A stretch of 35,246 nt of DNA from NCBI GenBank assembly GCA_013286575.1, contig JABDFL010000010.1, positions 1-35,246 of the forward strand, in the 5' to 3' direction. Positions 9,387 through 34,464 of the stretch are shown one piece after another. The notes under the pieces were generated by a model. That model was not told where the DNA came from and ran no database searches. It worked only from the letters and a program-made list of their open reading frames with translations. This DNA is from Candidatus Omnitrophota bacterium (lineage in GTDB: Bacteria > Omnitrophota > Gorgyraeia > Zapsychrales > Fredricksoniimonadaceae). The position numbers and the translations under genes are program-made. The stretch's first letter is position 1. Every line of letters begins with the position of its first letter.

Positions 9387-9559
9387 GATATGGTCAAATG
9401 GTATTGTTCCCGAAACGGGATATTTTGGCCGTCTGCTTCGGTTTACGTCAAAAATTTTCTAAAGATTCTCTTCATTTGGAAAATTTTTAACGTAATTCCT
9501 CGCAGACATTTGGCCAAAAATCCCTGATCGTTTCGTCCACAATACCATTTAACCATATC
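9387..9559. repeat. 173-nt imperfect hairpin / foldback element
   Basis: The interval between xerD and the cca-family gene is almost entirely one inverted repeat. The left arm GATATGGTCAAATGGTATTG pairs with CAATACCATTTAACCATATC. It continues through CGAAACG/CGTTTCG, TTTTGGCC/GGCCAAAA and GTCTGC/GCAGAC to an inner pair TTTACGTCAAAAATTTTC / GAAAATTTTTAACGTAA around a roughly 20-nt loop. It has no open frame. It could be a MITE-like foldback element or encode a structured RNA. Confidence 0.8.
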
Positions 9560-9579: not shown

Positions 9580-10299
9580 GTGAAAAATTTATTATCCAAT
9601 TTAAATCCTAAATCCTTGGCCTTGGCGCGGGATATCGGCCTTTTGGCGCAGAAGCAGGGTGCTGCGGCTTATCTGGTGGGCGGGCCGGTTAGGGATTTGA
9701 TGTTAAAGCATCCCAATGTTGATCTGGACATTGCGGTTGAAGGTAACGGTATTCGATTGGCTGATGGTTTTGCCGGCCTGCATCGCGGTGCCAAGGTAAC
9801 ACGCTACCCTGCTTTTAAGACGGCAACGGTGCATTTGCCGGATGGCTCCCTGGTTGATTTTGCGACTGCCCGTCAAGAGACCTACGTGCGGGGCGGTGCT
9901 TTTCCGGAGGTCGAACCTTCGAGCATTAAAAATGATCTTCTCCGCCGGGATTTCACCATCAATGCCATGGCCATCGCCATTAACCCCGAAACTTGGGGCA
10001 AGCTCGTGGACCCTTTCGGCGGCAGGACGGATTTGATCTCAAAGAAAATTCGCGTCCTGCACGAAAAAAGTTTTTTGGATGACCCTACACGTATTTTGCG
10101 GGCGGCCAGGTTTAAGGCGCGGCTGGGTTTTAAGATGGAGGCCAAAACGCTTCAATTGTTAAAATCTGCCATAAAAATTAAAGTGCTTGATACAATCAAG
10201 CCGCAGAGGTATCTTAAAGACTTTAATAAGCTCCTTAAAGAGCCTAAATCTAAAGAAGCTGTTAAGTGTTTAAAAGTATGGGATGCGTATAGATTTTAA
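9580..10299 (+). CDS. CCA-adding enzyme / poly(A) polymerase family protein, short
   Basis: This nucleotidyltransferase belongs to the class II tRNA CCA-adding/poly(A) polymerase family. It shows LVGGPVRDLML, the metal-binding DLDIAVEG, RRDFTINAMAI, and DDPTRILRAARF. At 239 aa it is only about the head and neck of the family, whose bacterial members usually exceed 400 aa with a body/tail or HD domain; whether it is active alone is unclear. The GTG start at 9580 is the first in frame after the hairpin and lacks a clear ribosome-binding site. The tRNA-Pro in this window lacks an encoded CCA, so some enzyme of this kind is required. rbfA follows after a palindromic repeat. Confidence 0.85.
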   Translation: MKNLLSNLNPKSLALARDIGLLAQKQGAAAYLVGGPVRDLMLKHPNVDLDIAVEGNGIRLADGFAGLHRGAKVTRYPAFKTATVHLPDGSLVDFATARQETYVRGGAFPEVEPSSIKNDLLRRDFTINAMAIAINPETWGKLVDPFGGRTDLISKKIRVLHEKSFLDDPTRILRAARFKARLGFKMEAKTLQLLKSAIKIKVLDTIKPQRYLKDFNKLLKEPKSKEAVKCLKVWDAYRF

Positions 10300-10330
10300 A
10301 AAGATTGCTTCGCTGCGCTCGCAATGACAC
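10298..10330 (+). repeat. Palindromic repeat family A, copy 1 (short form)
   Basis: AAAAAGATTGCTTCG...CTCGCAATGACAC, with ATTGC/GCAAT pairing. It overlaps the TAA of the cca-family gene and ends 21 nt before rbfA. Confidence 0.85.
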
Positions 10331-12368: not shown

Positions 12369-13266
12369 GCTGCGATTGAAAAAAACCTGCGCTGCTATCG
12401 GTATTTTCGACGGGGTGCATCGCGGGCATCAGTATCTGATCAAAAAGATGACGGCATGCGCCCGGCGGCTTGGCGCCCAGCCCATTGTCATTACTTTTTT
12501 CCCTCACCCGGCCCATGTGCTTCGGCCTGATTTGAAATTGGGGTACTTAACTTCGCTTGATGAGCGTTTCCGTTTGCTTGGTGATTTGGGTGTCACGGCC
12601 TGCCTGGTCATTCCTTTTAACCGGACCTTTGCCAAAATCGAGCCTCAGAAATTTATTAAAGATATTTTGGTCAAAAAATCAGGGGTCAAGGCTGTATTTG
12701 TCGGTGAGGATTTCCGCTTCGGCAAGGACAGGAGCGGGGACATCGCTTTATTTGAAAAACTCGCTTTAGAATGCGGCTATGAAATGCACGCTGTGCCGGG
12801 CCTCAAGCAGGGACGGACGGTTATCAGCTCGACGCGTATTCGGCAGTCGGTGGGTGAAGGTAAATTAAAGGAGGCGGGACAGCTTCTGGGCCGTGGCGTG
12901 TCCATTTCAGGACATGTTGTCAAAGGCTCAGAGCGCGGTAAGGGCCTGGGTTTCCCGACAGCCAATATTGCCTATGAGGCGGATATTCTTCCGCCGCAAG
13001 GGGTGTATATTGTCAAAATTTTGCTGGGGAAAAAGGTTTATCCAGCCGTCGCTAATATCGGTACAAGGCCTTCGTTTGAAAAACAAATTTCCAAACTGCA
13101 TCTGGAAGCCCATATTCTTGATTTTTCAAAAGATATTTATGGCAAGCGTTTAGAGGTGGTATTTTTAAAGAAAATCCGCAATGAAAAGAAGTTTTCCAGC
13201 CCGGAAGAACTTGTCCGCCAGATCCAAAGAGACGAAGCCTTTGCCCGAAAATATTTTGGCAGATAA
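12337..13266 (+). CDS. ribF: Bifunctional riboflavin kinase / FAD synthetase
   Basis: RibF converts riboflavin to FMN and FMN to FAD. In this 309-aa protein the N-terminal adenylyltransferase domain shows GIFDGVHRGHQYL and TFFPHPAHVL. ISSTRIRQSVGEGKLKEA marks the domain's end. The C-terminal flavokinase domain has GHVVKGSERGKGLGFPTANI, the Mg-ATP and riboflavin-binding GKxxGFPTAN motif, then PAVANIGTRPSF and the catalytic-Glu segment HLEAHILDF. The ATG at 12337 lies within the end of truB. No FMN riboswitch is visible upstream, which fits its place inside an operon. Confidence 0.95.
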   Translation: MKVISLNGSSKLRLKKTCAAIGIFDGVHRGHQYLIKKMTACARRLGAQPIVITFFPHPAHVLRPDLKLGYLTSLDERFRLLGDLGVTACLVIPFNRTFAKIEPQKFIKDILVKKSGVKAVFVGEDFRFGKDRSGDIALFEKLALECGYEMHAVPGLKQGRTVISSTRIRQSVGEGKLKEAGQLLGRGVSISGHVVKGSERGKGLGFPTANIAYEADILPPQGVYIVKILLGKKVYPAVANIGTRPSFEKQISKLHLEAHILDFSKDIYGKRLEVVFLKKIRNEKKFSSPEELVRQIQRDEAFARKYFGR

Positions 13267-13285
13267 CGCCAAAATATGGCATACT
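13256..13285 (+). promoter_or_regulatory. Weak candidate promoter before the second giant gene
   Basis: TTGGCA (13256-13261) and CATACT (13280-13285) are 18 nt apart. Transcription would begin at about 13292, the chosen ATG itself, so the transcript could be leaderless. No ribosome-binding site precedes that ATG. Support is only moderate. Confidence 0.3.
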
Positions 13286-13291
13286 TTCTTC

Positions 13292-16200
13292 ATGTCAGGA
13301 TCATCTAAACTCTTTAAAGACATTATAAGCTGTTGGCTTATTGTGGCGTTTTTAGGCCTTTCGGTGTATGTCCCGCAAGCCCAGGCAGAAGATTTTGCTT
13401 CTACGCTTTTGCGATCCAAGGAACAGGGAATATTGGTCCATTTAAGTCCTGCCTACATTCCTGCTCACCTGATGGGGATGAGTATTCATACGGATAATCC
13501 TTTAAAATTTGACTTTTTAATCCATAAAGGTGATGGGAGTTTAAGCGGTACCCAGAAAAAGCAGGAATACACCAGGTTGGTCAAATATTTTTTGGCTTCA
13601 TTGACCATCCCTGATAAAGACCAGTGGGTCAACCTGTCTCCCTATGAGCATAATCGCATTATAGCGGATAATTTTGGCAAGACCGAGATGGGCCATGATC
13701 TTTTAGGCCAGGATTATTTATTGAAGCAAATGACATCTTCCCTGATGTATCCCGAATCCGGTTTAGGCAAGAGTTTTTGGAACGAAGTCTATTCAAAAGC
13801 CTGGACTGAATTTCATACAACCAATATTCCGGTCAATACCTTTAATAAGGTCTGGATAGTCCCTGACCAGGCCACTGTTTATGAAAGTGGTAATACGGCC
13901 TATATCATTCAAAGCCATTTGAAGGTGATGTTGGAAGAAGATTATCTGTCTTTGTCTAAACACGTATCAACCAGTACGCACACCATTGGTTCCCAAGTTA
14001 TCCGGGAAATCATCCTTCCCGCCCTGGAAAAAGAAGTCAACGAAGGCAAAAACTTTGCCCAATTGCGCCAAATCGTCAGCGGCATGATACTCGCCACTTG
14101 GTATAAAAGAGCACTTAAAGAATCCTTGCTTGGAAAAATTTATGCCGATAAGGGCAAGGTCAAGGGGGTGGACCAGGACCCGAGGACCAATGAAGAAATT
14201 TATCAGCAGTATCTGAAGGCTTTTAAAAAAGGCGTGTATAACTACATCAAAGAGGATGAAGATAAATATACTCATCAATCAATTCCAAGGAAGTATTTCT
14301 CAGGGGGATTTAATAGGGCGGCAGTTTCCATCGTTAAGGATATACCTGACAATTTGGTGCTCACGGTCCGGGATGAGTGGGCAAATGCAGCAATGGTGAT
14401 TGATAGGGCGATGGTAAATATATTGCCTTCAGCACAAGCGGCGAATGCGGCGGTGGCTTCCCGTAGAGCCATGGGACAAAGGTTGAAAGGAATAATGGCT
14501 TGGGTTTCATCTAATGTAAAATCCACCAGACGGTTGCCAGGCACAAACATAGTTGCTTTTGATTATAAAAAAGAAGGGCTGCGCCGTTTGGCTCAAGTAA
14601 CTATAGAAAATATAAATGCAAAGGAACAATCCCAGCCCAAGAATGTAAGGAATTATCTGATTGAAACAGTATTTAATAGTTATGTAGATCGGATAACAAC
14701 AGAGGATGCTCCTGCTTTTGCCCAGGTGTTAAATGAAGAATGGAGAGCCTCTGGTTTTAATGAAAGGTACGGGCCGCTTTTTGATTGGATCGTTCTTAGC
14801 ATGGGCGCTCAGGGAGGGTCTGTCAGCAGGGTTAAATATACTTATCAATGGATCTATCGCTTTTTAGAAGGCGGGAGTCCTTTAGAAAGGGCGTTTGGGT
14901 TATGGTTACTGGTAGTTGGGAATGTGTCCCATTTGCGGGAGCAAGGCCTGCACCCGGAATCTGATAAAAAAGGCGGCAGATTAATATATGCGGATAATAA
15001 TTTGATCATTGGTGATGGTTTAAATCCCGGAATTTTACGGGAATATATTCAATCAATATTGCGGCTAAATGAAATGGGGGAGCTTACTGAAGTATTGTCG
15101 GGGCCTGACGGAAATCCTAATACATTGGGGTTGACTCCAAAAGATTTTTTATTGTGGGGACTGGTTTTAGCTGCAGACCCCTCTATCCATGCGCCGTTTG
15201 AATATTTTAGTGACGCTAAATTGCATACATTGCAGGATATATTTGGGAAAGATATGACTTTTGATAAAGTTATGGTCAAAAGTTTGGAAAAAGCTTTCAG
15301 TCATATACCTAAAAATAGTTTAAAAGAGATACAGCCTTTACTGATGGAAGCATTTTCTGTAACAGATGAACAATGGGCAGTCAAAGGCTTCAAGTCTCCT
15401 TATTTTTACGGGTCTATTGATTTTATAAATAATTTGGTGAGATCTGATGATTTTCAAAATGATGTTTTTTGGCAAACTTATCCGTTAATGGATAGATTTA
15501 AAATGTTTCCGTTTTTGAGGAAATATTTACCCGCTTATAAAGTAGTCAGGGGTTTGATCGAGGCAAGGGATATTTTTGAAATAGACCACGACCAGAGCAT
15601 ATATAGAAACCTGGCCGTAAAACAAAATCCTGACGGGCTTAGAAAATTCTATGCGCAGACCTTCACGTCACGGCCTTTGGCGGTGCTTTTGCCGGATGTT
15701 GCCGCTGTATTTGATAAAGAAAAACAAGACGCGGCGATGCAAACGGATTCAACAGGCTCAAATGCGCCGAGTGGGCCTTATCGTGAACTTGACGGAGGAA
15801 GCAGGTTAATAAAAATTACTCCCAATGTGAATGCGTTCATTAACCGTATTAAAGCTAAAAAAGAAGGTGAGCGCCTTCAGGGCGCATTTAGAATTACATT
15901 TTCTTTAGAGGATCTCGGCATTATCGAGAGCTTCCCGATAGCAGGCATGTTGAATTATCATTATCAAAAATATGTGAATAACGTCCCTCAAGATGGCTAC
16001 GTAGACGTGTATGTTACGGATGCCTTATATAGAAAGAGTGTTCCAAGGATTGACTTTAAGATAAGGAAAGGCATTTCCAGCATACTGGTTTCAATCAATC
16101 CTTCCTATATCATAAGAATCGAAAAGGTTGATACAGTGCCTGAAGCGGTTTTTAAAAGCACGATGGTGGCTGAAATCCTCCAGACCAGCCAGGATTTGCC

Positions 16201-19200
16201 CAGCAAAGAGGCAATTATGGCTACGTTAAAAAACGTCAGCCTCGAAGAGTTTATTAGAAACATCGGTGAATGGTTAAACAAAAAACCTTTAATTACAAAA
16301 TTAATAGTACAGGCGCTATTAAAACAACGCCCCGGCATAATAAATTTCTTTCGCCCCATTGATCCTTATTTTAAGGAAGCCTTAGGCCTTAGATTTGACG
16401 CGGCGATGAGTGGTCCGTCAAGATTAGCGGAAAGATTTTCTGAGATTATAAATCAATTGAGCCGTTCATTCTATCCGAGGGACGCAAGAAAAAGCGGGTT
16501 ATTCAGGGAAAGCTTTAGGGGATTTCTTGACGAAATAGACCGGGGCCTTCCTTCCGTTGTTGCAAGGTCAATCAACAGGCGCTCTCTGGTGAGTATCGCA
16601 TTCGAATTCCACGCCCTTTTTCAGACTCAATTTTTATTGGATTATCTTCCTGATGCAATGGAAGTTTTGAAAGCTACCGCCCGAAGGAGTGCCAGTAAAT
16701 TTTCAGGAAATAAAATTTTACTTATGTACCAATTGGAATGGGACCTTGTTGCTGCCCATTACCTGAAGTTGGTAGGTAAAAAATTAGTTGAACGTAATGG
16801 TTTGGGCAGCTTTGTGCGGGTGAATAAATTAAGTAAAGGGGAAACCGCAATTGTCGATCTGATCCATACCATTTGGGTCCAATCAATGGGGGCAAAATAT
16901 GCAGCTACTAAAGGCGTGCTTTCAGGTTATTACCATGATCCCGGCCCTATGGGTTTGGATACTTGGGAACAAGTAGCGGAGTTATTAAAGTACATTAATG
17001 GAATTTGTGACCAAGAAGAAGTTATGTCTTTTTTATCTTCATTAGATGAGCTTTCCAGCGCCAAAGAAATGGACAGGCCCAGGCATTTGGAAATCGTTGT
17101 TCCAACAATCCTAATGACGGTAATCCCGCTTTTGCTCGGGAAAAGAAAAAATAGCATTCTTAAACCTCAAACAGATCAATTTGATCATTTAAGAGCCAGG
17201 CTTAACCGGCTTGTTAACAGGATGAACCGTTTGATTATAACAAAGCCCAACGGAAACAGAGATCCCGATTTGGTAAGAGAGTATGAAAGGCAAGTAAACG
17301 GTATTTTGGAAGAATTCTTTGTAGAAAGGCATTATTTGTCATTTAGTCAATACAGTTCCAATATGCTTTGGGGATTGAGGGAAGATCTCCGGACGGCACA
17401 AATTATTTTGGAAGTGCCGGATTTTTATGAATCAAATGGGAATGACATTAATGAGGTAATCAATTATATATTATGGATTGAAAAAACCCAAAATCGGGAT
17501 TTCTCTATGACGGCAGAGGAAGGTCAAGCTCAGATAAATAAGGACGCGGCGATGAATGTTGAGAACATAACATTAACAGATGATTTGAGGTCCAAGTTAG
17601 CTGCCACGGTCAACTCGCTATTTAAGGATGGGCGGACCAGAAAATCATTGAGGACGCTGGGTTTAAAAACGCTTTTGGATATCGTCATTGAAGAGGAAGG
17701 ATTTTTCCCTGATGAAATCAGGCAGGGTGTAAAAGCTATCGTAGATAAGCCTCCTTTTTCTTTCCACGCTGCCAGATCACAAAATAATAATATAGAAGCT
17801 TCAACGTCAGTCTGGAGTTTTTTGATGATCGTCAGGCAAGACTTGATCAAAGGTGCAGAATTAGGGGGCGCAGAAGCTCAAGATTTTGCGGAAGATAAAA
17901 AAGGGATCCAACAAACAACAAGGTCAATTATCGGCAAATTGGTCTTACAGGGGATAAAAACGGTGGGAGAGTTTAAATTTAAAGACAGGAACGATTTGAA
18001 AGAAGGGAAAGAGGGATTAACGGATGAGGAGACAGCTTTTTTAGCTGAACAGTTAAGAAAATATGGATTTCATCTAAAGGGAGAGGAGCCTGTCATCGAA
18101 CAGGTTGCCGTAATTCCGAGGGTTAAAAGAATAATACCTGCAGGGCCGATCAGCCTTGAATTAGAATTGGAAGCCGTAGATATGCCTGCTTCCATAAGAG
18201 GCATGATAGAAAAGATCGGGGCAGTGCCGGGAATTGAACGGGTGATCCAAGGCATGTATTCAGCGCATGCCAAGCGGGCCATTGACATATTGAAATGCGC
18301 GTCAAAATTGATCGATGAAGGCTATCTTTTAGTAGCTTTTGACTTGAATTTCGACATAGATCAAAACAATGGAAGGTTGCATATAGATATAGCGGCCAAG
18401 CACCCATCACCTATAGGAATGAAAACAAAAATAGATCTTTTCAATGTGGTCGATCCCCGGCCCAGGGTGCGTATGAACACTGAGCTTTATGAATATGGAT
18501 ATCCAGAAAAATGGGTCCAGTCAAACATACTCCAGGCACATACAGAATTACAAATGGAGAAATTCCTTAAGAAACTAAGCAGTGACGACGCTTACGGAAC
18601 ATTGCTGAACAGGCAATTAATAACACAATTAGGTGAAAACAACGGTCAAATAGTATTCGAATATTTTACGGGGTCGCCCAAAATCGGTATTTTTTATGTT
18701 GCACCGTACTCGGCGGGTTTTATTTATGTAGACGGGTTGGAGTACATTTATATCAGAAGATCAAGCGCTCCTTTGAGAGTTATGAACGCATTTTATGATG
18801 GCGATTTTCTTCCTAAGATCGTTCAGGAAGAGCTTGATCTTATGGACAATGTTTGTGCGAAGGCTTCTTTAGTAATAACTCAAAATGATAAACAAAGGCA
18901 TGTTAACGTAGGTCTTGTATATGTCCCATTATCTCTGAACACGGAAGAAACAAGTTTTGTTAAGAAACAGGCCAGGTACAGCCAAAGCAAGGCCAATGCC
19001 CAACCGACCATTGTCATTCTTGAAGATGATGCTGTTTTAGGGCAACTCCTGCAAAGAGATTGGCAAATAGAAGTTAATAATATGTTTGGAGAAGGCAAGG
19101 TGGGCGTGCAATGGGCCAAGACTGTCAAATATGCGAGGGAAATCCTTGAGTCATATCATGTTGCTTTAGTTGTTGCTGATACTGAGAATAGAGGTAGCCA

Positions 19201-20851
19201 ACAATGGATCGATTTTGTCCGGAAGAGAGCGGAAGAAGGCTTGATAAGTTCCCCTATTTTTGGTTCTAGTAAAAATAGTTTGAGATCATCAGAGTGGCCC
19301 TCAGTAAACGGTTTCGTCGGAGTGCTGGCGAAGCCATATGGTCCTGATGATATCCATGAAGCTTTGTTTAAAGTGGCTAAGAGTATTGAAAAGAGAATAG
19401 ATCTATATGAGCGATTTTTGTCTGCAGCATCTGTTGAGGCTGACAGGGCGATGAATGTTTCGGATATTTTGAACAAGCCCGGGCAGTGGCAGGACAGAGA
19501 AATCATAAGGATGAAAACAACGGCATTGCATCAATTGTCAAAAGAAGTGGATGCAAGTCGGCTATCGTTTGAGCACATACTTAAGGACAATAAATCTGTA
19601 CGACCCGAAGAAAGGGAGGTTTTTGAAGAAAATATTAAACGGCTAAAAAGCGGACTTAATAGGATTCGCACGCAAATCCTTGCCAGGGCGTTGTTAGAAG
19701 CGGTGGTTGAAAGAAGCGCTTTTGAAGCTGTGCCGCAATTCCGGGACGGCGGGGCCATATTTGACAAATTGGTCGAACGCGGCTATTTGAAAACCCGGTT
19801 TAAGGGAAAAAGCATCGCTGAGGCTAAACTATATGGTGTGCCCAGCGTTGATGATATTTTGAATATTTCTGAAGGAAGCATTTCTTATGAGGATGCTGAG
19901 AGGGCTGTCGGGATATTGCAGGAATCTTTGGGAGACCAGCCTTGGCGGAGTTTTGGAATGTTAATCAGTGATTATACTGCGCCGAAGGGCTTCGAAAGCG
20001 CCATAGCGACAAATCAAAAGCTTGACGTGTTAAGATTTTGGGCTGAAGAATTAAAAACAAAGGTAGTCAAGTTTCGGCGGCTAAGGACGATGCTCAGTCC
20101 ATCGGATGAGGAAGTTCAGGAATTTGATATTCAGGAAGATGCGGTCGCAGATGCTTTAGCCATAATTGATAAAGTGATCAAGCAATATGGGAACGCCTTT
20201 GCCAATGCCCGGATCATAGAAGTATCGGGAAAGGGTGAAACAAGCAAAAACAGCGGGACGAATAATGAGGATGTCGAAAAGGATGAAAAAGCTTTAATGG
20301 TTTTGAAGAATTTTTTAGACTGGCGAAAGATCGAGAAAGGGAACAAGGATTTAACGGAATTGATCGTTTTTTTAAAGCAATCAAGTCTTGGGGACCTGGA
20401 AAAGTGGAGATTTTTATTAAAACAAAAAAGATACGGCAAGGCCCCTGAAATGGGCCTGGTCTCTTTTCGCGTCTATCAAATGTTTATGCGGGAAAACCTT
20501 TTGGGCGCTGTCACCAATGAGCTTGTTGAACGAAGAATTGAATTTAGAATCCAGGCATTCAATGAGACCAGGCAGAAGGCTGCTGCAGCCGCAGCGATAG
20601 AAGATGCTGCAATGAGCAGTGATGAAAACCCCGGTGGTATTGATTTAAACTCCGCGAATTTGAATTTGGAAATTAAGCGTGATGGCCGTGGGGTGCCTTT
20701 GCCGTTGGCCGATCAGGACATGGCGCAATTAAGCCGCATCCAGGGCTTTGAGCCGGAAATTATTGATATTAGACCGGCCGCTGATTTGCCTATCTTAAGG
20801 GAGCTGCAGCAAAAATTGCAATCCGCTTCTGTTGTTTCCATCGGAAAGTAA
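13292..20851 (+). CDS. Exported giant modular protein with receiver-like domain (2519 aa)
   Basis: The track start at 13181 lies inside ribF; I prefer the ATG at 13292. It gives a signal peptide (SCWLIVAFLGLSVYVPQAQA, then ED). Residues about 30-330 are the same N-module as the fragment at 3-305, ending IPRKYFSGG. D-x-A-M motifs start at residues 371 (DRAM), 813 (DAAM), 1036 (DAAM), 1418 (DAAM), 2051 (DRAM) and 2438 (DAAM), cutting the chain into segments of about 220-630 residues. Residues about 1904-2035 look like a response-regulator receiver domain: acidic pair near E1911-D1912-D1913, Asp1963 in VVADTEN, Lys2014 in LAKPYG. Residues about 1545-1602 resemble a helix-hairpin-helix of the RNAP alpha-CTD type (weak). 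Residues 2448-2519 (GGIDLNSAN...) match the C-terminus of the first giant protein. The other segments are unrecognised. By eye the middle is AT-richer than its neighbours. Confidence 0.85.
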   Translation: MSGSSKLFKDIISCWLIVAFLGLSVYVPQAQAEDFASTLLRSKEQGILVHLSPAYIPAHLMGMSIHTDNPLKFDFLIHKGDGSLSGTQKKQEYTRLVKYFLASLTIPDKDQWVNLSPYEHNRIIADNFGKTEMGHDLLGQDYLLKQMTSSLMYPESGLGKSFWNEVYSKAWTEFHTTNIPVNTFNKVWIVPDQATVYESGNTAYIIQSHLKVMLEEDYLSLSKHVSTSTHTIGSQVIREIILPALEKEVNEGKNFAQLRQIVSGMILATWYKRALKESLLGKIYADKGKVKGVDQDPRTNEEIYQQYLKAFKKGVYNYIKEDEDKYTHQSIPRKYFSGGFNRAAVSIVKDIPDNLVLTVRDEWANAAMVIDRAMVNILPSAQAANAAVASRRAMGQRLKGIMAWVSSNVKSTRRLPGTNIVAFDYKKEGLRRLAQVTIENINAKEQSQPKNVRNYLIETVFNSYVDRITTEDAPAFAQVLNEEWRASGFNERYGPLFDWIVLSMGAQGGSVSRVKYTYQWIYRFLEGGSPLERAFGLWLLVVGNVSHLREQGLHPESDKKGGRLIYADNNLIIGDGLNPGILREYIQSILRLNEMGELTEVLSGPDGNPNTLGLTPKDFLLWGLVLAADPSIHAPFEYFSDAKLHTLQDIFGKDMTFDKVMVKSLEKAFSHIPKNSLKEIQPLLMEAFSVTDEQWAVKGFKSPYFYGSIDFINNLVRSDDFQNDVFWQTYPLMDRFKMFPFLRKYLPAYKVVRGLIEARDIFEIDHDQSIYRNLAVKQNPDGLRKFYAQTFTSRPLAVLLPDVAAVFDKEKQDAAMQTDSTGSNAPSGPYRELDGGSRLIKITPNVNAFINRIKAKKEGERLQGAFRITFSLEDLGIIESFPIAGMLNYHYQKYVNNVPQDGYVDVYVTDALYRKSVPRIDFKIRKGISSILVSINPSYIIRIEKVDTVPEAVFKSTMVAEILQTSQDLPSKEAIMATLKNVSLEEFIRNIGEWLNKKPLITKLIVQALLKQRPGIINFFRPIDPYFKEALGLRFDAAMSGPSRLAERFSEIINQLSRSFYPRDARKSGLFRESFRGFLDEIDRGLPSVVARSINRRSLVSIAFEFHALFQTQFLLDYLPDAMEVLKATARRSASKFSGNKILLMYQLEWDLVAAHYLKLVGKKLVERNGLGSFVRVNKLSKGETAIVDLIHTIWVQSMGAKYAATKGVLSGYYHDPGPMGLDTWEQVAELLKYINGICDQEEVMSFLSSLDELSSAKEMDRPRHLEIVVPTILMTVIPLLLGKRKNSILKPQTDQFDHLRARLNRLVNRMNRLIITKPNGNRDPDLVREYERQVNGILEEFFVERHYLSFSQYSSNMLWGLREDLRTAQIILEVPDFYESNGNDINEVINYILWIEKTQNRDFSMTAEEGQAQINKDAAMNVENITLTDDLRSKLAATVNSLFKDGRTRKSLRTLGLKTLLDIVIEEEGFFPDEIRQGVKAIVDKPPFSFHAARSQNNNIEASTSVWSFLMIVRQDLIKGAELGGAEAQDFAEDKKGIQQTTRSIIGKLVLQGIKTVGEFKFKDRNDLKEGKEGLTDEETAFLAEQLRKYGFHLKGEEPVIEQVAVIPRVKRIIPAGPISLELELEAVDMPASIRGMIEKIGAVPGIERVIQGMYSAHAKRAIDILKCASKLIDEGYLLVAFDLNFDIDQNNGRLHIDIAAKHPSPIGMKTKIDLFNVVDPRPRVRMNTELYEYGYPEKWVQSNILQAHTELQMEKFLKKLSSDDAYGTLLNRQLITQLGENNGQIVFEYFTGSPKIGIFYVAPYSAGFIYVDGLEYIYIRRSSAPLRVMNAFYDGDFLPKIVQEELDLMDNVCAKASLVITQNDKQRHVNVGLVYVPLSLNTEETSFVKKQARYSQSKANAQPTIVILEDDAVLGQLLQRDWQIEVNNMFGEGKVGVQWAKTVKYAREILESYHVALVVADTENRGSQQWIDFVRKRAEEGLISSPIFGSSKNSLRSSEWPSVNGFVGVLAKPYGPDDIHEALFKVAKSIEKRIDLYERFLSAASVEADRAMNVSDILNKPGQWQDREIIRMKTTALHQLSKEVDASRLSFEHILKDNKSVRPEEREVFEENIKRLKSGLNRIRTQILARALLEAVVERSAFEAVPQFRDGGAIFDKLVERGYLKTRFKGKSIAEAKLYGVPSVDDILNISEGSISYEDAERAVGILQESLGDQPWRSFGMLISDYTAPKGFESAIATNQKLDVLRFWAEELKTKVVKFRRLRTMLSPSDEEVQEFDIQEDAVADALAIIDKVIKQYGNAFANARIIEVSGKGETSKNSGTNNEDVEKDEKALMVLKNFLDWRKIEKGNKDLTELIVFLKQSSLGDLEKWRFLLKQKRYGKAPEMGLVSFRVYQMFMRENLLGAVTNELVERRIEFRIQAFNETRQKAAAAAAIEDAAMSSDENPGGIDLNSANLNLEIKRDGRGVPLPLADQDMAQLSRIQGFEPEIIDIRPAADLPILRELQQKLQSASVVSIGK

Positions 20852-21022: not shown

Positions 21023-21463
21023 ATGTTTTACGGTGAATACAGCCATGGTATTGATACCAAAGGCCGTTTGATTTTGCCTGCCCGGTTCCGGGAAGTGGCG
21101 AAAGAAAACGGGATCGATAAATTTTTTGTCACCCGCGGGCTTGATAAATGTATTTTTATGTTCGCCGAAGGGGAATGGCGGCTGCAGGAGCAGCGCTTTA
21201 AGAACCTTTCTTTCACTAAAGGCGAGGCGCGTTCTTTCAACCGTATGTTTTTCTCCGGCGCCGTCGAGGTCTTGCCGGACAAGCAGGGGCGTTTTATCAT
21301 CCCCCAGTACCTTAAAGATTTTGCCGGCATCAAAAAAGATGCGGTGGTCATCGGGATTTCCAATCGCATTGAAATTTGGGAAACCGCGTCATGGCGGGAA
21401 TTTTTCAGTAAATCCAGCGGGGATTTTGAGAAAACCGCGGAGCATATGTTAGATGTTGATTAA
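21023..21463 (+). CDS. mraZ: Transcriptional regulator MraZ
   Basis: MraZ is the autorepressor of the division and cell-wall cluster and forms ring-shaped oligomers that bind repeats upstream of mraZ. The 146-aa protein has two SpoVT-AbrB-like halves: FYGEYSHGIDTKGRLILPAR at the N-terminus and FSGAVEVLPDKQGRFIIPQ in the middle, each with the D-K/T-x-GR-I-P signature. The ATG at 21023 is preceded by GGAGG and by three phased TGGAG repeats. The stop TAA overlaps a palindromic repeat that separates it from rsmH. Confidence 0.95.
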   Translation: MFYGEYSHGIDTKGRLILPARFREVAKENGIDKFFVTRGLDKCIFMFAEGEWRLQEQRFKNLSFTKGEARSFNRMFFSGAVEVLPDKQGRFIIPQYLKDFAGIKKDAVVIGISNRIEIWETASWREFFSKSSGDFEKTAEHMLDVD

Positions 21464-21504
21464 AAAGATTGCTTCGTCGCCCTTCGGGCTCCTCGCAATG
21501 ACAC
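21462..21504 (+). repeat. Palindromic repeat family A, copy 2 (long form)
   Basis: AAAAAGATTGCTTCG, an inner GCCC-TTC-GGGC hairpin, then CTCGCAATGACAC. It overlaps the mraZ stop codon and ends 12 nt before rsmH. Confidence 0.85.
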
Positions 21505-21516
21505 CGGTGATAGAAC

Positions 21517-22413
21517 ATGAATGAAATATCTCATGTACCGGTCATGCCTAAGGAAGCCTTGGAATTGCTGCGCCTGCCGCAGGGCGGTGTGGCCGTGGAC
21601 GGGACCTTAGGTTTAGGCGGACATGCTTTTTTAATGGCCCAGGCATTGGGGCCTCACGGACATTTGATCGGTATTGATCGCGATAGCGCCTCTTTAGGGC
21701 TGGCCCAAAAGAAATTGGCTTCTCTTATTTTAAAGATTGATTTGTTAAAGGGGAGTTTCAGCACGCTTGATAAATTTCTTGCCGGCCTTAAAGTCAGCGC
21801 TGTCGACGGTATATTGCTGGACCTGGGGATCTCGAGTTTTCAGCTGGATGACGGGCAGCGCGGTTTTGCTTTCAGCCACGACGGCCCTTTGGACATGAGG
21901 ATGGACATAGAGGCCCAAGGGATGTCAGCAGCGGATTTGGTCAACACATTAAAGCAGGCTGAACTTGAGAAAATTATTTCAGAATACGGCGAAGAACGTT
22001 TTGCCCGCCGTATTGCCGAAGCGATCGTGATGCAGAGGTCCAGGGCAAAAATAACGACCACCAAGGGTTTGGCGGACATTATTTTGCGCGCCTTGCCTAA
22101 AGGTTATACCCGCGGGCGCATTCATCCGGCCACCCGCGCGTTTCAGGCCTTGCGCATTGCGGTCAATGAAGAACTGGAAGCGTTGTCTTTGGGTTTGGAA
22201 GTATGTTTCAGGGCGCTTAAGAAAGGCGGACGTTTGTGCGTGATTTCCTTCCATTCGCTGGAAGACCGCCTGGTGAAGAATAAATTCAAGTCTTTAGGCT
22301 TTGAGCAGGAAGGTGTTATTTTGACAAAAAGGCCGCTGGTGGCAAGTGATGAAGAATGTAAGGAGAATCCTCGTGCCAGGAGCGCGAAGATGAGAGGGAT
22401 TGAAAAAGCGTGA
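21517..22413 (+). CDS. rsmH: 16S rRNA (cytosine(1402)-N(4))-methyltransferase RsmH
   Basis: RsmH (MraW) methylates N4 of C1402 in the 30S decoding centre using SAM. This 298-aa protein shows HVPVMPKEAL at the N-terminus, the SAM-binding VDGTLGLGGHAFLM and GIDRD, then GILLDLGISSFQLDDGQRGFAF, PLDMRMD and VISFHSLEDRLVK near the end. The size is normal. The start ATG at 21517 has only a weak ribosome-binding site (GGTGAT) just after the palindromic repeat. The stop codon overlaps another copy of the same repeat. Confidence 0.96.
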   Translation: MNEISHVPVMPKEALELLRLPQGGVAVDGTLGLGGHAFLMAQALGPHGHLIGIDRDSASLGLAQKKLASLILKIDLLKGSFSTLDKFLAGLKVSAVDGILLDLGISSFQLDDGQRGFAFSHDGPLDMRMDIEAQGMSAADLVNTLKQAELEKIISEYGEERFARRIAEAIVMQRSRAKITTTKGLADIILRALPKGYTRGRIHPATRAFQALRIAVNEELEALSLGLEVCFRALKKGGRLCVISFHSLEDRLVKNKFKSLGFEQEGVILTKRPLVASDEECKENPRARSAKMRGIEKA

Positions 22414-22444
22414 AAAGATTGCTTCGCTGCGCTCGCAATGACAC
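22413..22444 (+). repeat. Palindromic repeat family A, copy 3 (short form)
   Basis: AAAAGATTGCTTCG...CTCGCAATGACAC. It begins in the last base of the rsmH stop codon, in the same orientation as transcription. Confidence 0.85.
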
Positions 22445-27418: not shown

Positions 27419-28507
27419 TTGTTTTATTTTTTATCGCAATATTATTATAATTCCACCCATTTTAACATTTTCCGCTATATCACTTTTCGCGCCGGCATGG
27501 CCGCGGTCACGGCTTTTTTGCTGTGCATGATATTGGGGCCCATATTTATCGAATTAACCAAACGCCGCCGTATCCATGAAGCAGCCAAACGGCAGGATGC
27601 CCCCGGCCTTGATGCGTTTCAGGTCAAAAAAGAAGGCACTCCCACCATGGGTGGGATTTTTATCGTCGCCAGTATTTTGATTTCGGTGGGCTTATGGGGC
27701 AATTGGTCAAACATGTTTGTGGTCATGACTTCCTGGGTCTGCCTGTCTTTCGCGGTGCTGGGGGGGATTGATGATTATATAAAATTGAAAGGGATCGGGC
27801 CGCATCGGGGGCTTTCTTCCAAGACCAAAGCTTTTTGGCAGGTGCTGATCGCTTTTATCGTCGGGATCTTTGTGTATTTGTACCCGTTTATAACGACCAA
27901 TCTGGATATTCCCTTCTTTAAGAATTTGATTATCAATCTGGGGCCGTTTTTTGTGTTCTGGGTGGTTTTAGTCGTGGTGGGCTCCTGCAATGCGGTCAAC
28001 CTGACCGACGGCCTGGATGGTTTGGCCATCGGCACCACCTTGATGGTGGCCTTTACCATGGCGATCTTATCTTATGTGACGGGTAACGTTGAGATGAGCG
28101 ATTATCTCTATGTTCCCTATGTGCCGGGGGCCGGAGAATTGACGGTTTTTGCTGCTGCCATTACCGGGGCGAGCCTTGGATTCCTGTGGTTTAATTGTTA
28201 TCCGGCGACGGTCTTTATGGGAGATGTGGGGTCGCTGGCATTGGGCGGGTCTTTGGGGATGATCGCTGTGCTGATCAAAAAGGAATTATGGCTGGTTGTT
28301 TTGGGAGGGGTCTTTGTTATCGAAGCAGGGTCTGTGATCCTGCAGGTATTTTCTTTCAAGCTTACGGGCAAGCGCATATTTAAAATGTCGCCCTTCCACC
28401 ATCATTTGCAGTTATCCGGCTGGAACGAAAATAAAATCATCGTTAGGTTCTGGATCCTCGCCATTATCCTGGCGATGCTGACGATAACGACGCTTAAAAT
28501 CCGTTAA
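27419..28507 (+). CDS. mraY: Phospho-N-acetylmuramoyl-pentapeptide-transferase MraY
   Basis: MraY transfers phospho-MurNAc-pentapeptide to undecaprenyl phosphate to make lipid I in the inner membrane. This 362-aa polytopic protein shows KKEGTPTMGGIFI, the catalytic-Asp region GGIDDYIKLKG, NLTDGLDGLAIGT, WFNCYPATVFMGDVGSLALG and the histidine motif SPFHHHLQLSGW, all in normal order across about ten membrane segments. The start is TTG at 27419, supported by AGAGGG about 7 nt upstream. A large palindromic element follows the stop. Confidence 0.96.
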   Translation: MFYFLSQYYYNSTHFNIFRYITFRAGMAAVTAFLLCMILGPIFIELTKRRRIHEAAKRQDAPGLDAFQVKKEGTPTMGGIFIVASILISVGLWGNWSNMFVVMTSWVCLSFAVLGGIDDYIKLKGIGPHRGLSSKTKAFWQVLIAFIVGIFVYLYPFITTNLDIPFFKNLIINLGPFFVFWVVLVVVGSCNAVNLTDGLDGLAIGTTLMVAFTMAILSYVTGNVEMSDYLYVPYVPGAGELTVFAAAITGASLGFLWFNCYPATVFMGDVGSLALGGSLGMIAVLIKKELWLVVLGGVFVIEAGSVILQVFSFKLTGKRIFKMSPFHHHLQLSGWNENKIIVRFWILAIILAMLTITTLKIR

Positions 28508-28509
28508 GG

Positions 28510-28707
28510 TATAAATTTATTATTTGATCATTGCATTCGGCTATTGTATTTTCTTCTCAGGCACGCTCGCCGAAACCAGCGTTTCGGCGTCGCTAGTCAC
28601 CAGGCTGCTTTACCCCGAACTGGACGTTCGGGGACCAGCTAAAGCAGCCTTCTACTACCTTCGAAGAAAACACAACGTCCGAATAAACGCATAAATAATA
28701 ATTTATA
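28510..28707. repeat. About 198-nt branched palindromic element
   Basis: The mraY-murD gap is one nested palindrome. The outer arms are TATAAATTTATTATTT (28510-28525) and AAATAATAATTTATA (28693-28707). The next arms are ATTCGG...TTGTATTTTCTTC (28535-28556) and GAAGAAAACACAACGTCCGAAT (28663-28684). Inside are two perfect hairpins: CGCCGAAAC-CAGC-GTTTCGGCG (28568-28589), and AGGCTGCTTTA plus CCCCGAAC with their complements (28602-28650). The fold would be a three-way junction. No open frame and no terminator T-run are seen, and the murD start is 6 nt beyond. Confidence 0.8.
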
Positions 28708-28713
28708 ATTTGT

Positions 28714-30039
28714 ATGTCTTTCAATCTCAAAGGTAAAAAAGTGACCATCATCGGTGCGGCGCGTAGCGGGATTGCTGTGGCTGACGTGGTGTTGCGTCTT
28801 GGAGGGATTGCTAAGATTTCGGAGGGGAAGGCGCTTGCGGAATTTAGGGATGTTTTGGATTCCCGGGTGATTGTTGAAGCTGGCGGGCACACCCGGAGTT
28901 TTATTGAAGATAGCGATTATGTCGTGCTGAGTCCGGGTGTGCGGTTGGATGCGGTGCCGGTGACGTGGGCACGGGCCCATGGGATTGAAGTGATGGGAGA
29001 GGTGGAATTTGCTTTTCGTTTGTGCCCTTGCCCGGTCGTCGCGGTGACCGGCAGCAACGGGAAAACAACGACTTCAACGGTGATCGCGGAGATTATTAAG
29101 CGTGCGGGGCGTAAGGTTTGTTTATGCGGGAATATCGGCTCTCCGTTTTCTAAACATGTATTGGATTTGAAGGCTTCGGACACGGTTGTGTTGGAAATCA
29201 GTTCTTTTCAGTTAGAGAGCACCATTCATTTTAAACCGCATGTGGCGGTATGGACGAATTTCAGCCAGAACCATTTGGACCGGCATAAAGACTTGGAAGA
29301 ATATTTTCAGGCCAAGTGTAAGATTTTTGCGAATCAGGATCCGAAAGATTTTGCGGTGTTGAATTATTCGGATGATCGACATCGGGAGTTGGCGGAACAT
29401 TTAAAAGCTAAAGTGCTTTTTTTTAAAAAGATTGCTTCGTCGCCTTCGGCTCCTCGCAATGACACAATGGTGGACAATCCTCATAATGGCACAATGGTGG
29501 ATAATTTTCATAATGACGTCATGGTCGATAATCCTAATTATCTGGCGGCGATGCAGGCGGCGTCGGCTTTGGGCATTAGTGAAGATATTTGTTTAAAGGT
29601 GTTTTCGGAATTTAAGGGAGTGGAGCACCGTCTGGAGTTTGTGCGGGATTTGGGGGGAGTTGATTTTATCAATGATTCTAAATCAACGACGGTGGAAGCG
29701 GGGCGATGGGCATTGGAGCGCGCACTTAAGCCCATGGTGATGATCTGCGGCGGGTTGGACAAGCATTTGGATTATTCACCTTTAAAACCTTTAGTGGCCC
29801 GGAAAGTCAAACATATGATCGCCATCGGCCAGGCGCGTGAGATCATGAAGGCGACCTTTGGTGATGTGGTGGCGGTGGATACTTTCACTTCTTTGGAAGA
29901 AGCGGTGAAAGCGGCCAGGGAAAAAGCAAAATCAGGCGAAGCTGTCCTGCTTTCACCGATGTGTGCGAGTTTTGATATGTTTAAGGATTATGAACACCGG
30001 GGACGGTGTTTTAAGGAGATTGTTAATAGTTTGAAATGA
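28714..30039 (+). CDS. murD: UDP-MurNAc-L-alanine:D-glutamate ligase MurD with repeat-derived insert
   Basis: MurD adds D-glutamate to UDP-MurNAc-L-Ala. The 441-aa protein has the N-terminal VTIIGAARSGIAVADVV, VLSPGVRLD, the ATP loop VAVTGSNGKTTTSTVIAE, EISSFQLEST, NFSQNHLDRHKDLEEY, and the C-terminal EHRLEFVRDLGGVDFINDSK, ICGGLDK and LLSPMCASFDMFKDYEHRG. Residues about 238-273, where the family has a variable loop before its HNxxN motif, are encoded by a family A palindromic repeat (KKIASSPSAPRNDT) followed by a 27-bp tandem repeat (MVDNPHN...). The frame stays open through both. The start is ATG at 28714 with no clear ribosome-binding site. Confidence 0.95.
   Translation: MSFNLKGKKVTIIGAARSGIAVADVVLRLGGIAKISEGKALAEFRDVLDSRVIVEAGGHTRSFIEDSDYVVLSPGVRLDAVPVTWARAHGIEVMGEVEFAFRLCPCPVVAVTGSNGKTTTSTVIAEIIKRAGRKVCLCGNIGSPFSKHVLDLKASDTVVLEISSFQLESTIHFKPHVAVWTNFSQNHLDRHKDLEEYFQAKCKIFANQDPKDFAVLNYSDDRHRELAEHLKAKVLFFKKIASSPSAPRNDTMVDNPHNGTMVDNFHNDVMVDNPNYLAAMQAASALGISEDICLKVFSEFKGVEHRLEFVRDLGGVDFINDSKSTTVEAGRWALERALKPMVMICGGLDKHLDYSPLKPLVARKVKHMIAIGQAREIMKATFGDVVAVDTFTSLEEAVKAAREKAKSGEAVLLSPMCASFDMFKDYEHRGRCFKEIVNSLK
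29425..29465 (+). repeat. Palindromic repeat family A, copy 4, inside murD
   Basis: AAAAAGATTGCTTCG, a hairpin GCC-TTC-GGC, then CTCGCAATGACAC. It lies in frame within murD and contributes KKIASSPSAPRNDT to the protein. Confidence 0.9.
29464..29541 (+). repeat. 27-bp tandem repeat in murD, about 2.9 copies
   Basis: Copies at 29464-29490, 29491-29517 and 29518-29541 encode MVDNPHN-GT, MVDNFHN-DV and MVDNPNY. They follow directly after the family A repeat; since 27 is a multiple of three, the frame is unaffected. Confidence 0.85.
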
Positions 30040-31180: not shown

Positions 31181-32244
31181 TGAAGATACTCATTGCCACC
31201 GGCGGGACAGGCGGGCATATTTTTCCGGCCATTGAGACAGCCAAGGCCTTGAAGGTCCGCGGCCATCAGGTGAGCTTTGCCGGAGTTTTGGGGCCTGCTG
31301 AAGAAAAGATCAAAGCTTTGGACTTTCCTGCTTTTTCACTATCGGCGCAGGGGCTTGTTGACCGTTCATTTAAAGGGTGGATCAATTTTGGCAAGATCAT
31401 GTCCCAGGCGATATTTCGTTCTTTTGGGGTGGTGCGCAAAATCGCCCCTGATAAAATCATAGGCTTTGGCGGTTATGGGGCTTTCCCGGTTGTCATGGCT
31501 GGGTCTTTGATGCGATGTCCTGTCTTGATCCATGAACAGAATGTGGTCCCGGGCAAGGCCAATACAGTGCTTTCAAAGATCGTTAAAAAAATTGCCATTA
31601 GTTTTGAAGGCAGCCGCCGGTATCTTGATCCGGCCAAGGTGGTGTGGACCGGCTGCCCGTGCCATCACAGCGCTGTCCCGTCGAAATCTGAAGGGCTTCT
31701 TGCTTTTGGTCTTGAGGAGAATAAAAAAACGATCGTGCTTTTAGGAGGCTCTCAGGGCAGTCAGCGGCTGAATGAGATTTTTTTAGAACTGATGAAGGAT
31801 TTGTCCCTATCCGGGTTTCAGGCGATACACATGACGGGCAAAAAAGATTTTCCGTTATATGAAGCGCGTTACGGGCAGGCGAATTTACCGGTCAAGGTGT
31901 ACGCTTTTATCAACAATATCAGTCAGGCCTATGCTGCGGCAGACATTATCATTGCCCGCTCCGGTGCGGCGACAGTCAGTGAACTGGGGCTTTTGGGGCT
32001 GCCGTCCATTTTGGTGCCGTATCCTTTTGCCGGCAACCATCAAAAATATAATGCCGATGTCCTGGCAGGTGCAGGGGCTGCGATCATCATTGAACAGAAG
32101 GATTTGACTAAGGCATCTCTCAAAGAGGCCGTGACCCGTATGCTGTCTTCAAATTTTTCAAGGGAAGAGATATTAAAGAAAACGCAGGGCTTGTTTCAAA
32201 CGGACGCGGCGTTACAGTTGGCCTTGGTGGCGGAGGGGCTATGA
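31180..32244 (+). CDS. murG: Lipid II synthase MurG (UDP-GlcNAc transferase)
   Basis: MurG adds GlcNAc to lipid I on the inner face of the membrane, giving lipid II. The 354-aa GT-B protein shows TGGTGGHIFPAIETAKAL (N-terminal glycine-rich loop), IGFGGYGAFPVVMAG, HEQNVVPGKAN, LLGGSQGSQRLNE, and the C-terminal UDP-GlcNAc site RSGAATVSELGLLGLPSILV followed by PYPFAGNHQKYNADVL. AGAGGA precedes the ATG. Its stop overlaps the next gene by ATGA. Confidence 0.97.
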   Translation: MKILIATGGTGGHIFPAIETAKALKVRGHQVSFAGVLGPAEEKIKALDFPAFSLSAQGLVDRSFKGWINFGKIMSQAIFRSFGVVRKIAPDKIIGFGGYGAFPVVMAGSLMRCPVLIHEQNVVPGKANTVLSKIVKKIAISFEGSRRYLDPAKVVWTGCPCHHSAVPSKSEGLLAFGLEENKKTIVLLGGSQGSQRLNEIFLELMKDLSLSGFQAIHMTGKKDFPLYEARYGQANLPVKVYAFINNISQAYAAADIIIARSGAATVSELGLLGLPSILVPYPFAGNHQKYNADVLAGAGAAIIIEQKDLTKASLKEAVTRMLSSNFSREEILKKTQGLFQTDAALQLALVAEGL

Positions 32245-33047
32245 AAAAAGACTGCTTCGTCGCTTCGTTGCGCTGGACTGCGCTTGCCGCAATGACACTA
32301 TGTGTCAATGTTGCTTTTGCTGACGACGTTCAGAGTGGGTGGCAGCAGACGAAGGGGCAGGATTTTATTGTTTATTACCGTTCGGATGTGCCTGATGATT
32401 TTGTGCAGACGACGATGGACACGGCTGAGGATGAATTAAAGGAGATCACGGACAATCTGGGCATCACTAATAATCAGTATTGGGCCTGGGACTCCCCGGC
32501 CAAGATCTATATTTATAGTGACCACAAGGACTATGTCAGAAATGCCGGCCAGGCAGGCTGGTCGCACGGGGCGGCTTTTGCCAAGGCGCGTACGATCAAA
32601 ACTTACCCGGAGGTCCAAGGGTTTTTTGATACCATCCTGCCTCATGAGTTGGGGCATATTGTTTTCAGGGATTACATCGGTTATACCGTCGGTGTTCCTT
32701 TATGGTTTGAGGAAGGTGTGGCTATTTACCAGGAGAAAGCCAAGCGTTTAGGGGCCGGTGATGATGTTCGCGCAGCGATTGAAAATGGTCAATTTATTCC
32801 TTTAACACAGCTCACAGGTGTGAGATTATATAAAGATTCCAAATCCCAGGTCGTGGATTTATTTTATTCTGAATCCGCCAGCGCTGTTTATTACATGATC
32901 ACGGAATTAGGTGAACAGGAATTTTATATGTTTTGCAATGAGATCAAAAATGGCACGCCTTTTCAGGATGCGCTCCATAAAGTTTATTTGAGGTTTGAAA
33001 CGATAGATGATTTGAATAAAGCGTGGGTTGAGTATTTGCAAGGATAG
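32241..33047 (+). CDS. Exported peptidase-MA-like zinc metalloprotease
   Basis: This 268-aa protein has a HELGH zinc motif (His135, Glu136, His139) and a downstream WFEEGVAIY with Glu157 or Glu158 as a likely third ligand, the pattern of gluzincin peptidases of the peptidase-MA-like group. The N-terminus looks like a signal peptide: MKK, then FVASLRWTALAAMTLCVNVA, ending AFA before DD. The DNA for about the first 19 residues is a copy of palindromic repeat family A, so the export signal appears to derive from a repeat. It sits between murG and murC with an ATGA overlap to murG and 4 nt to murC. That suggests an envelope role, but the substrate is unknown. Confidence 0.85.
   Translation: MKKDCFVASLRWTALAAMTLCVNVAFADDVQSGWQQTKGQDFIVYYRSDVPDDFVQTTMDTAEDELKEITDNLGITNNQYWAWDSPAKIYIYSDHKDYVRNAGQAGWSHGAAFAKARTIKTYPEVQGFFDTILPHELGHIVFRDYIGYTVGVPLWFEEGVAIYQEKAKRLGAGDDVRAAIENGQFIPLTQLTGVRLYKDSKSQVVDLFYSESASAVYYMITELGEQEFYMFCNEIKNGTPFQDALHKVYLRFETIDDLNKAWVEYLQG
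32244..32299 (+). repeat. Palindromic repeat family A, copy 6, encoding a signal peptide
   Basis: AAAAAAGACTGCTTCGTCGC...GCCGCAATGACAC is a diverged long-form copy with an extended loop. It begins at the ATGA overlap of murG and the peptidase gene and encodes most of the peptidase signal peptide. Confidence 0.8.
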
Positions 33048-33051
33048 GATC

Positions 33052-34464
33052 ATGAGCAAACATTATCATTTGATCGGTATTGGCGGGATTGGCATGGGGA
33101 CCCTGGCTTCTTTGCTTTTGGATAAAGGGCATAAGGTGAGCGGCTCGGACTTGAAAGACAATGACATGTGCCGGGGGCTTCGCGCCAAAGGGGTGGTCAT
33201 CCATATAGAACATAAGACCAGCAATGTTGTTAAGGGCACTGATTATGTTGTCTATTCTTCCGCGGTCAGGGTCAATAACCCTGAACTTATTGAAGCAGTG
33301 AGCCGTAATGTTCCTGTCCTGCGCCGGGCAGAAGTATTGGCCCAGCTGGTCAACAGCCAGGTCGGGATCACCATTGCCGGCGCGCATGGCAAGACAACAA
33401 CGACGTCGATGGTTTCAAGCCTTTTGATCAACGCGGGCCTTAAACCCACGACCGCCATCGGCGGGATCATCAACGGCCAGGCGGCATATAATGCCAATTT
33501 AGGAGAAGGTAAATATTTTGTGGCTGAAGTTGATGAAAGTGACGGGACCTTCCTTTATTTTAATCCGCATTACTCAATCATTACCAATATGGATTTTGAG
33601 CACGTGGATTTTTATAAGAATTGGGAAGGCATCACCCAGGCCTATGCCAAGTTTATGGCCTGCACCAAGAAGGAGGGGTGTTTGATTGTCTGCGGTGAGG
33701 ACAAGAAGCTCATTGAGCTGGTGCGCCAACAGAAGGTCCCGGCAATCACTTACGGCATGAGCGACGAACAAGAGGTGTATGCCACGCGAGTGCTGACGGA
33801 CGGGTTCCAGTCTTCTTTTTCATGCCATACCAAGAAGGGCAAGCTGGGTGATTTTGAACTCAACGTCCCGGGCAGGCATAATATTTTAAATGCTTTGGCG
33901 TGCATCAGCCTGGGATTACAGCTGGGCATTCCTTATGAAGTCATGTTTAAGACGCTTAAGAATTTTACCGGGGTCAAACGCCGTTTCCAGTTGAAAGGCC
34001 GTGTCAATGAGGTGACGGTGATCGATGATTACGGCCATCATCCCACTGAAATTGCGGCGACCCTTAATGCCGCGCGCCTATTCCATCCCAAGCGCCTGGT
34101 CACTGTATTTCAACCTCACCGGTATTCCAGGACTAAATTTCTTCTGGATGAATTTGTAGGGTCTTTAAGCCTCAGCGATGAACTGGTATTGACGGACATT
34201 TATGCGGCCAGCGAGAAGGTCTCTGAAGGTGTGGGGATCGCGGCATTGCTTGAGAAATTACAAAAAATACTGGGGCCCAGGGTCGTGTTTTTAAAAAAAG
34301 AAGGCATTTTGAAGCATTTACAGGAGTATGTTCAGCCAGGCGACATGGTCATTTTTCTGGGGGCAGGGGACATTTATCATCTTTCCGATGAATTGGTTAA
34401 AATTTTAAATTTAGAAATGGATTCCCGCTTCCGCGGGAATGACAAGGCTTTGAGAGCATCATGA
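33052..34464 (+). CDS. murC: UDP-N-acetylmuramate:L-alanine ligase MurC
   Basis: MurC attaches L-alanine to UDP-MurNAc, the first stem-peptide step. I chose the ATG at 33052 (470 aa) over the track's TTG at 33028; AAGGATAGGA lies just upstream, and the protein then begins SKHYHLIGIGGIGMGTLASL, the family's N-terminal glycine loop. Further motifs are GSDLKDND, VVYSSAVRVNNPE, the ATP loop AGAHGKTTTTSMVSSL, VAEVDESDGTFL, NMDFEHVDFY, PGRHNILNALA, DDYGHHPTEI and FQPHRYSRTKF. The last residues ([15 protein letters not shown]) come from a family B repeat read in frame. ATGA overlap with ddl. Confidence 0.96.
   Translation: MSKHYHLIGIGGIGMGTLASLLLDKGHKVSGSDLKDNDMCRGLRAKGVVIHIEHKTSNVVKGTDYVVYSSAVRVNNPELIEAVSRNVPVLRRAEVLAQLVNSQVGITIAGAHGKTTTTSMVSSLLINAGLKPTTAIGGIINGQAAYNANLGEGKYFVAEVDESDGTFLYFNPHYSIITNMDFEHVDFYKNWEGITQAYAKFMACTKKEGCLIVCGEDKKLIELVRQQKVPAITYGMSDEQEVYATRVLTDGFQSSFSCHTKKGKLGDFELNVPGRHNILNALACISLGLQLGIPYEVMFKTLKNFTGVKRRFQLKGRVNEVTVIDDYGHHPTEIAATLNAARLFHPKRLVTVFQPHRYSRTKFLLDEFVGSLSLSDELVLTDIYAASEKVSEGVGIAALLEKLQKILGPRVVFLKKEGILKHLQEYVQPGDMVIFLGAGDIYHLSDELVKILNLEMDSRFRGNDKALRAS
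34418..34444 (+). repeat. Palindromic repeat family B, copy 3, inside murC
   Basis: ATTCCCGC-TTCC-GCGGGAAT with GACA, in frame at the 3' end of murC, where it encodes DSRFRGND. Confidence 0.88.

Follow-up and report, generated by a model that had tools for sequence, protein, structure and literature searches.

A REP-like palindrome and a 27-bp tandem array lie in frame within murD of an Omnitrophota bacterium

The window analysed here is the whole 35,246-nt stretch of contig JABDFL010000010.1 (positions 1 to 35,246, forward strand) from Candidatus Omnitrophota bacterium assembly GCA_013286575.1. It contains murD, a palindrome and a tandem array within this gene, and several further repeats (Table 1). 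In a structure comparison, the closest solved structures to the murD product were MurD chains, and both the Mur ligase domains and the conserved ligase positions are present in it. The catalytic and other invariant positions of MurD are kept, with invariance judged among 41 MurD sequences, and dN/dS outside the loop that holds the insert was 0.07–0.10 against congeners, with dS saturated. Because of these ratios and the kept positions, murD can be read as a constrained gene and not a pseudogene, and the comparisons indicate that purifying selection acts on it outside the loop.

Table 1. Coordinates of murD, its insert and other repeats in the window.
Feature	Coordinates	Strand	Basis or remark
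murD, 441 aa	28714..30039	+	Frame open across insert; Pfam Mur_ligase_M, Mur_ligase_C, MurD-like_N
REP-type palindrome GATTGCTTCGTCGCCTTCGGCTCCTCGCAATGACAC in murD	29430..29465	+	Encodes residues 240-251 IASSPSAPRNDT; one of 74 genome copies
27-bp tandem array, 3.1 copies, residues ~248-275	29451..29535	+	Tandem Repeats Finder, relatives compared
Native loop end VDNPNY, residues 271-276	29524..29541	+	Same residues in insert-free same-genus relatives
Palindrome, longer core, 4 nt past murD stop codon	30044..30082	+	Repeat family D1
Palindrome, downstream of 146-aa ORF 21023-21463	21466..21504	+	Genome pattern search
Palindrome, short core	10299..10330	+	Repeat family D4
Palindrome, short core, at end of ORF 21517-22413	22413..22444	+	Repeat family D4
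dRS3/CGTC-1-like palindrome (TGGATTCCCGC...GCGGGAATGACA), second family, in frame	34412..34444	+	Repeat family D2

Other elements were seen in the window. A structured element of ~150 bp with long inverted ends (28539–28690) lies between murD and the ORF that ends at 28507; 7 more copies of it, 70–97% identical, occur in the genome, and it represents a second, longer palindromic repeat family. The dRS3/CGTC-1-like copy gives MurC the C-terminal tail MDSRFRGND, and MurC of relatives is without this tail. A long inverted repeat between genes (9387–9559) has 31-nt arms that are 87% complementary and a second 33-nt pair inside. A Peptidase_MA_2 gene begins (32241–32300, MKKDCFVASLRWTALAAMTL...) with what resembles a decayed palindrome copy that would supply the N-terminal portion of a signal peptide; relatives carry other signal peptides. 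Two very large ORFs, 342–4442 (1366 aa) and 13181–20851 (2556 aa), contain segments common to many large ORFs of the genome, with recurring (D/E)xAM motifs between the segments and a GGIDL-type C-terminus, and are possibly members of a secreted multi-domain paralogue family.

An earlier note made from this DNA had described a palindrome and a 27-bp array in frame within murD, and both were recovered there by the repeat search and Tandem Repeats Finder, with the frame open throughout. In its own orientation, on the – strand, the palindrome reads GTGTCATTGCGAGGAG-CCGAAGG-CGACGAAGCAATC. The array is the sole tandem repeat that Tandem Repeats Finder reports in the window (period 27, score 93), and its match at lag 27 was 43/54, against at most 27 across 300 shuffles.

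MurD of relatives was aligned, as the note had suggested. The insert segment was missing in all 29 aligned relatives of the same order, which have a short loop between ...VxFF and NPNxLA. A longer loop in L002 is different and unrelated. These data support the claim that an essential enzyme carries a repeat-derived, in-frame loop at a variable position. Same-genus relatives without the insert share (I/V/T)DNPNY at the loop, which makes the final part of the array native. Of the three 9-residue MVDN units proposed earlier, the repeat itself is present, whereas the third unit overlaps this native segment and about two units were added; a wholly foreign origin of the MVDN units was rejected because VDNPNY is native in relatives. 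The placement of the HNxxN motif in the C-terminal region also needs correction, since the native NPN, which corresponds to its second N, belongs to the central domain. The surroundings of the loop are ~75–80% identical to relatives at the protein level, a distance at which neither the empty site nor the target-site duplication of a miniature inverted-repeat transposable element can be defined base by base.

Structure modelling, another check proposed, placed the insert in a predicted disordered loop. The AlphaFold model made with 41 sequences had a mean pLDDT of 90.7, and the sole stretch below 50 was residues 242–268, located between a strand (233–237) and a helix (274–285). This model supports the idea that MurD tolerates the insert as a disordered loop.

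The murD palindrome belongs to a dispersed family. The pattern GATTGCTTCG-N0-30-CGCAATGAC had 74 exact-ended matches of 26–47 nt in the genome of the window, a fragmented metagenome assembly of 1.32 Mb that is ~52% complete, and a reversed control pattern had 0. Each copy consists of a head TGTCATTGCGAG, a variable hairpin core and a tail CGAAGCAATC, and several frames are open on both strands. Among the 73 copies with context, all have a TGTC tag at the head (opposite orientation) and the tail is a C followed by a T-run. The stem has an outer part of 5 bp (ATTGC/GCAAT), an internal loop and an inner stem of 0–5 bp. The ends are constant and there are 38 distinct cores among the 73 copies. These varied cores still pair, with a mean longest inner stem of 2.84 bp versus 2.23 in 1000 shuffles (sd 0.10, maximum 2.55), and two-sided swaps such as GCC/GGC to GGC/GCC were seen. 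Close pairs, which are few, are tail to tail at L070 and L073. Within the genus the distribution is patchy (74, 37, 15, 14, 7, 1 and 0 copies per genome), and in the phylum the palindrome was found in 43 of 78 Omnitrophota genomes with up to 178 copies.

An Rfam search gave no family for the palindrome, with tRNA the only match. A full-text literature search with its letters returned nothing except primers and unrelated words, and we found no description of it in the literature searched, which was largely open access. No transposase linked to the palindrome was found in the ~52% complete genome. A Y1_Tnp search of this genome gave one match, in L088, where nearby hairpins are unrelated and the palindrome does not flank the gene; no link to a RAYT transposase was found. 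The Y1 transposase-like gene (L088:1380–1890) has near-perfect palindromes of the ACCATTACACCTCC...GGAGGTGTAATGG type inside and beside it, and the gene and these palindromes could be a separate REP-transposase pair. A second module, GTGTCAAAAGGC(CC/TT)..., often adjoins the palindrome at its head (L034, L043, L052, L055, L056, L059–L064, L065, L079 and L086), and it is translated together with the palindrome in MnmE, ValRS and an aldolase/SDR fusion (VKRPN..., VKRLD...).

Palindromes also occur inside other genes of this genome. Counting ORFs of at least 200 aa with at least 30 residues on either side of the palindrome, 31 copies lie inside 27 ORFs. Copies less than 30 residues from an ORF end were excluded, as translation may truly begin further downstream. 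Several of the insert-bearing large ORFs are likely paralogues (the unannotated O09, O10, O22, O26, O29–O31, O34–O36 and O39) whose insertions are perhaps not independent, so the number of independent events is below 31. Carriers identified by Pfam include MnmE, MutL, a pyruvate-dehydrogenase-type E2, PdxA, LpxB, LpxK, valyl-tRNA synthetase (ValRS), an aldolase/SDR fusion with three copies, TonB, a glycosyltransferase and others. In MnmE, LpxB, ValRS and the aldolase/SDR fusion, inserts of 10–31 residues are missing in relatives. Compared with congeners, MnmE has 29–31 extra residues, LpxB has 10 that come from the dRS3-like family, and the aldolase/SDR fusion has two clean inserts. One LpxB loop holds the palindrome of the murD family in the genome of the window, a copy of the same palindrome in the opposite orientation in congener G001 and a dRS3-like repeat in congener G003. 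The ValRS loops at ~228 and ~610 have repeat-like peptides in different species. Permissive loops are thus repeated targets.

The intragenic copies bear on whether assembly or binning artificially fused repeats with unrelated sequence within genes. The assembly is fragmented and incomplete, and short repeats can confuse assembly. However, dozens of insertions leave the reading frame open, the sequences on the two sides of the insert in each gene belong to one and the same protein, and 36 nt is shorter than a read. Intragenic palindromes also occur in the independently assembled G001, one of them in the same LpxB loop. An artefact is thus extremely improbable.

Another explanation is that the insertion was selected, with the hairpin or loop recruited, for instance to adjust murD translation as a hairpin in the mRNA or to take part in binding. 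It would fit with the paired inner stem that is kept through varied cores, with the second palindrome just past the murD stop codon, and with a possible RNA function of published REPs (PMC3733652). By contrast, the palindrome occurs in unrelated proteins and in both orientations, which leaves no shared role as protein or RNA apparent, the MurD loop is predicted to be disordered, and the murD hairpin is weak as RNA (z –0.63, sense strand). We regard selection of the insert as very unlikely.

To understand how the array arose, we compared its units (CTCCTCGCAATGACACAATGGTGGACA, ATCCTCATAATGGCACAATGGTGGATA and ATTTTCATAATGACGTCATGGTCGATA). A unit is composed of 14 nt of palindrome head (CCTCGCAATGACAC) and of murD DNA (AATGGTGGACAAT), and this second half came from the native VDNPNY end of the loop. 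Because every unit holds both palindrome head and local murD DNA, the array is best read as a by-product of the palindrome, and because the array ends in the native (V)DNPNY segment as its final copy, insertion of the palindrome would have come first and slippage after. It is plausible that slippage made the array, possibly on AGGA, a 4-nt sequence that, on the other strand, is common to the flank ATTAGGATT and the palindrome GCGAGGAG. The units are 17–22/27 identical (including 22/27 and 20/27), so the array is not brand new, and it might instead have existed first as an ordinary minisatellite with the palindrome arriving alongside later. We consider this order of events highly unlikely since every unit holds a decayed palindrome head (CCTCGCAATGACAC, CCTCATAATGGCAC, TTTCATAATGACGT) and other palindromes show head-side arrays of the same type at unrelated sites.

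Such arrays were found on the head side of 6 of the 73 palindromes and on the tail side of none (Fisher p = 0.03 only). The five outside murD (L053, L054, L062, L084 and L087) have periods of 23–24, and L053 and L054 are not independent, being ~1 kb apart with similar spacers. Exact two-head patterns occurred once each in G001 and G052. These arrays show how a palindrome insert can seed new protein tandem repeats. One tentative reading, which we think has some chance of being correct although the odds are against it, is that the head stutters, with its first 13–14 nt and ~10–13 nt of flank copied repeatedly as 23–27 bp units, always on the head side; as part of the same doubtful reading, this copying could occur at insertion or in later replication. 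If true, it would be a general route from a REP to in-frame protein tandem repeats inside enzymes, and the head-side arrays would be the footprint of a polarised copying process.

Together, these data make it very probable that a REP-like palindrome was inserted in frame into a permissive loop of murD, was tolerated as a disordered segment and was later extended by slippage duplication. A mobile or formerly mobile palindrome would have entered a surface loop, with a strand that ends near residue 237 on one side and a helix that begins at 274 on the other. Its extra residues would be tolerated by the cell as a loop that the model predicts to be disordered, and two duplications of ~27 bp by replication slippage beside the hairpin would then have fused the palindrome head to neighbouring murD codons and given the 9-residue repeats of MurD. 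The insert-bearing MurD is probably made and active, and the palindrome presumably spread by a transposition process.

The note had likened this insert to Rickettsia palindromic elements (RPE-1 and others; Ogata et al., 2000, 2002, as cited in PMC10969869 and PMC2229807). The likeness holds for behaviour, since both occur in frame in many conserved protein genes as well as between genes (here the 31 copies in 27 ORFs, missing in relatives) and in both cases loops or surface positions are where the inserts should be tolerated. It does not extend to membership. Elements of the RPE-1 type are ~105–150 bp long and come from Rickettsia (PMC2229807, PMC10969869), whereas the palindrome is 26–47 nt, has another sequence and resides in an Omnitrophota host; the nearest records with a MurD come from metagenome genomes of Candidatus Omnitrophota. 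A guanylate kinase carrying an RPE was shown to be active (PMC2229807).

Intragenic GTAG and CGTC REPs have been described in many species (Di Nocera et al., 2013; PMC3733652). CGTC-tagged REPs include Neisseria dRS3 and R. conorii RPE-4 and RPE-6, and TGTC is a listed variant of the tag (PMC3733652). Like these, the palindrome has an unpaired end tag of the CGTC, TGTC or CCTC type (here TGTC), a stem that starts from A-T pairs, many intragenic copies and no dedicated transposase found. Unlike them, it has an outer stem of only 5 bp followed by an internal loop and a variable inner stem, as compared with 8–9 bp from A-T pairs and a loop of 4–5 nt, and its tail does not fit the CCA-like unpaired tail. 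CGTC REP pairs are mostly head to head; the few close pairs of the present palindrome run tail to tail. A true dRS3/CGTC-1-like family is present in the window too. GTAG REPs with RAYT transposases (PMC3733652) are likewise short, abundant hairpins that occur within genes, tRNA synthetase genes among them, but the palindrome has no GTAG tag and does not flank the sole Y1 transposase found in the ~52% complete genome. In Nematomorpha mitochondria, palindromes are also translated in essential proteins (PMC6649704); there both arms encode conserved protein, whereas the Omnitrophota palindrome is a dispersed insert of non-conserved residues.

Because it differs from RPE-1 in length and host and from CGTC REPs in stem length and tail, the palindrome falls outside RPE-1 and outside the four CGTC families published so far; we describe it as a related variant, TGTC-tagged and REP-like. 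Intragenic REPs are already described, and the palindrome works like RPEs and REPs. Our results take the Rickettsia-type habit of palindromes within essential proteins into a distant phylum that is uncultured, and show it for a palindrome of different build. Species of the genus can serve as natural replicates, in that the same LpxB loop and the same two ValRS loops took different repeats in different species, so which protein loops tolerate invading DNA is directly testable.
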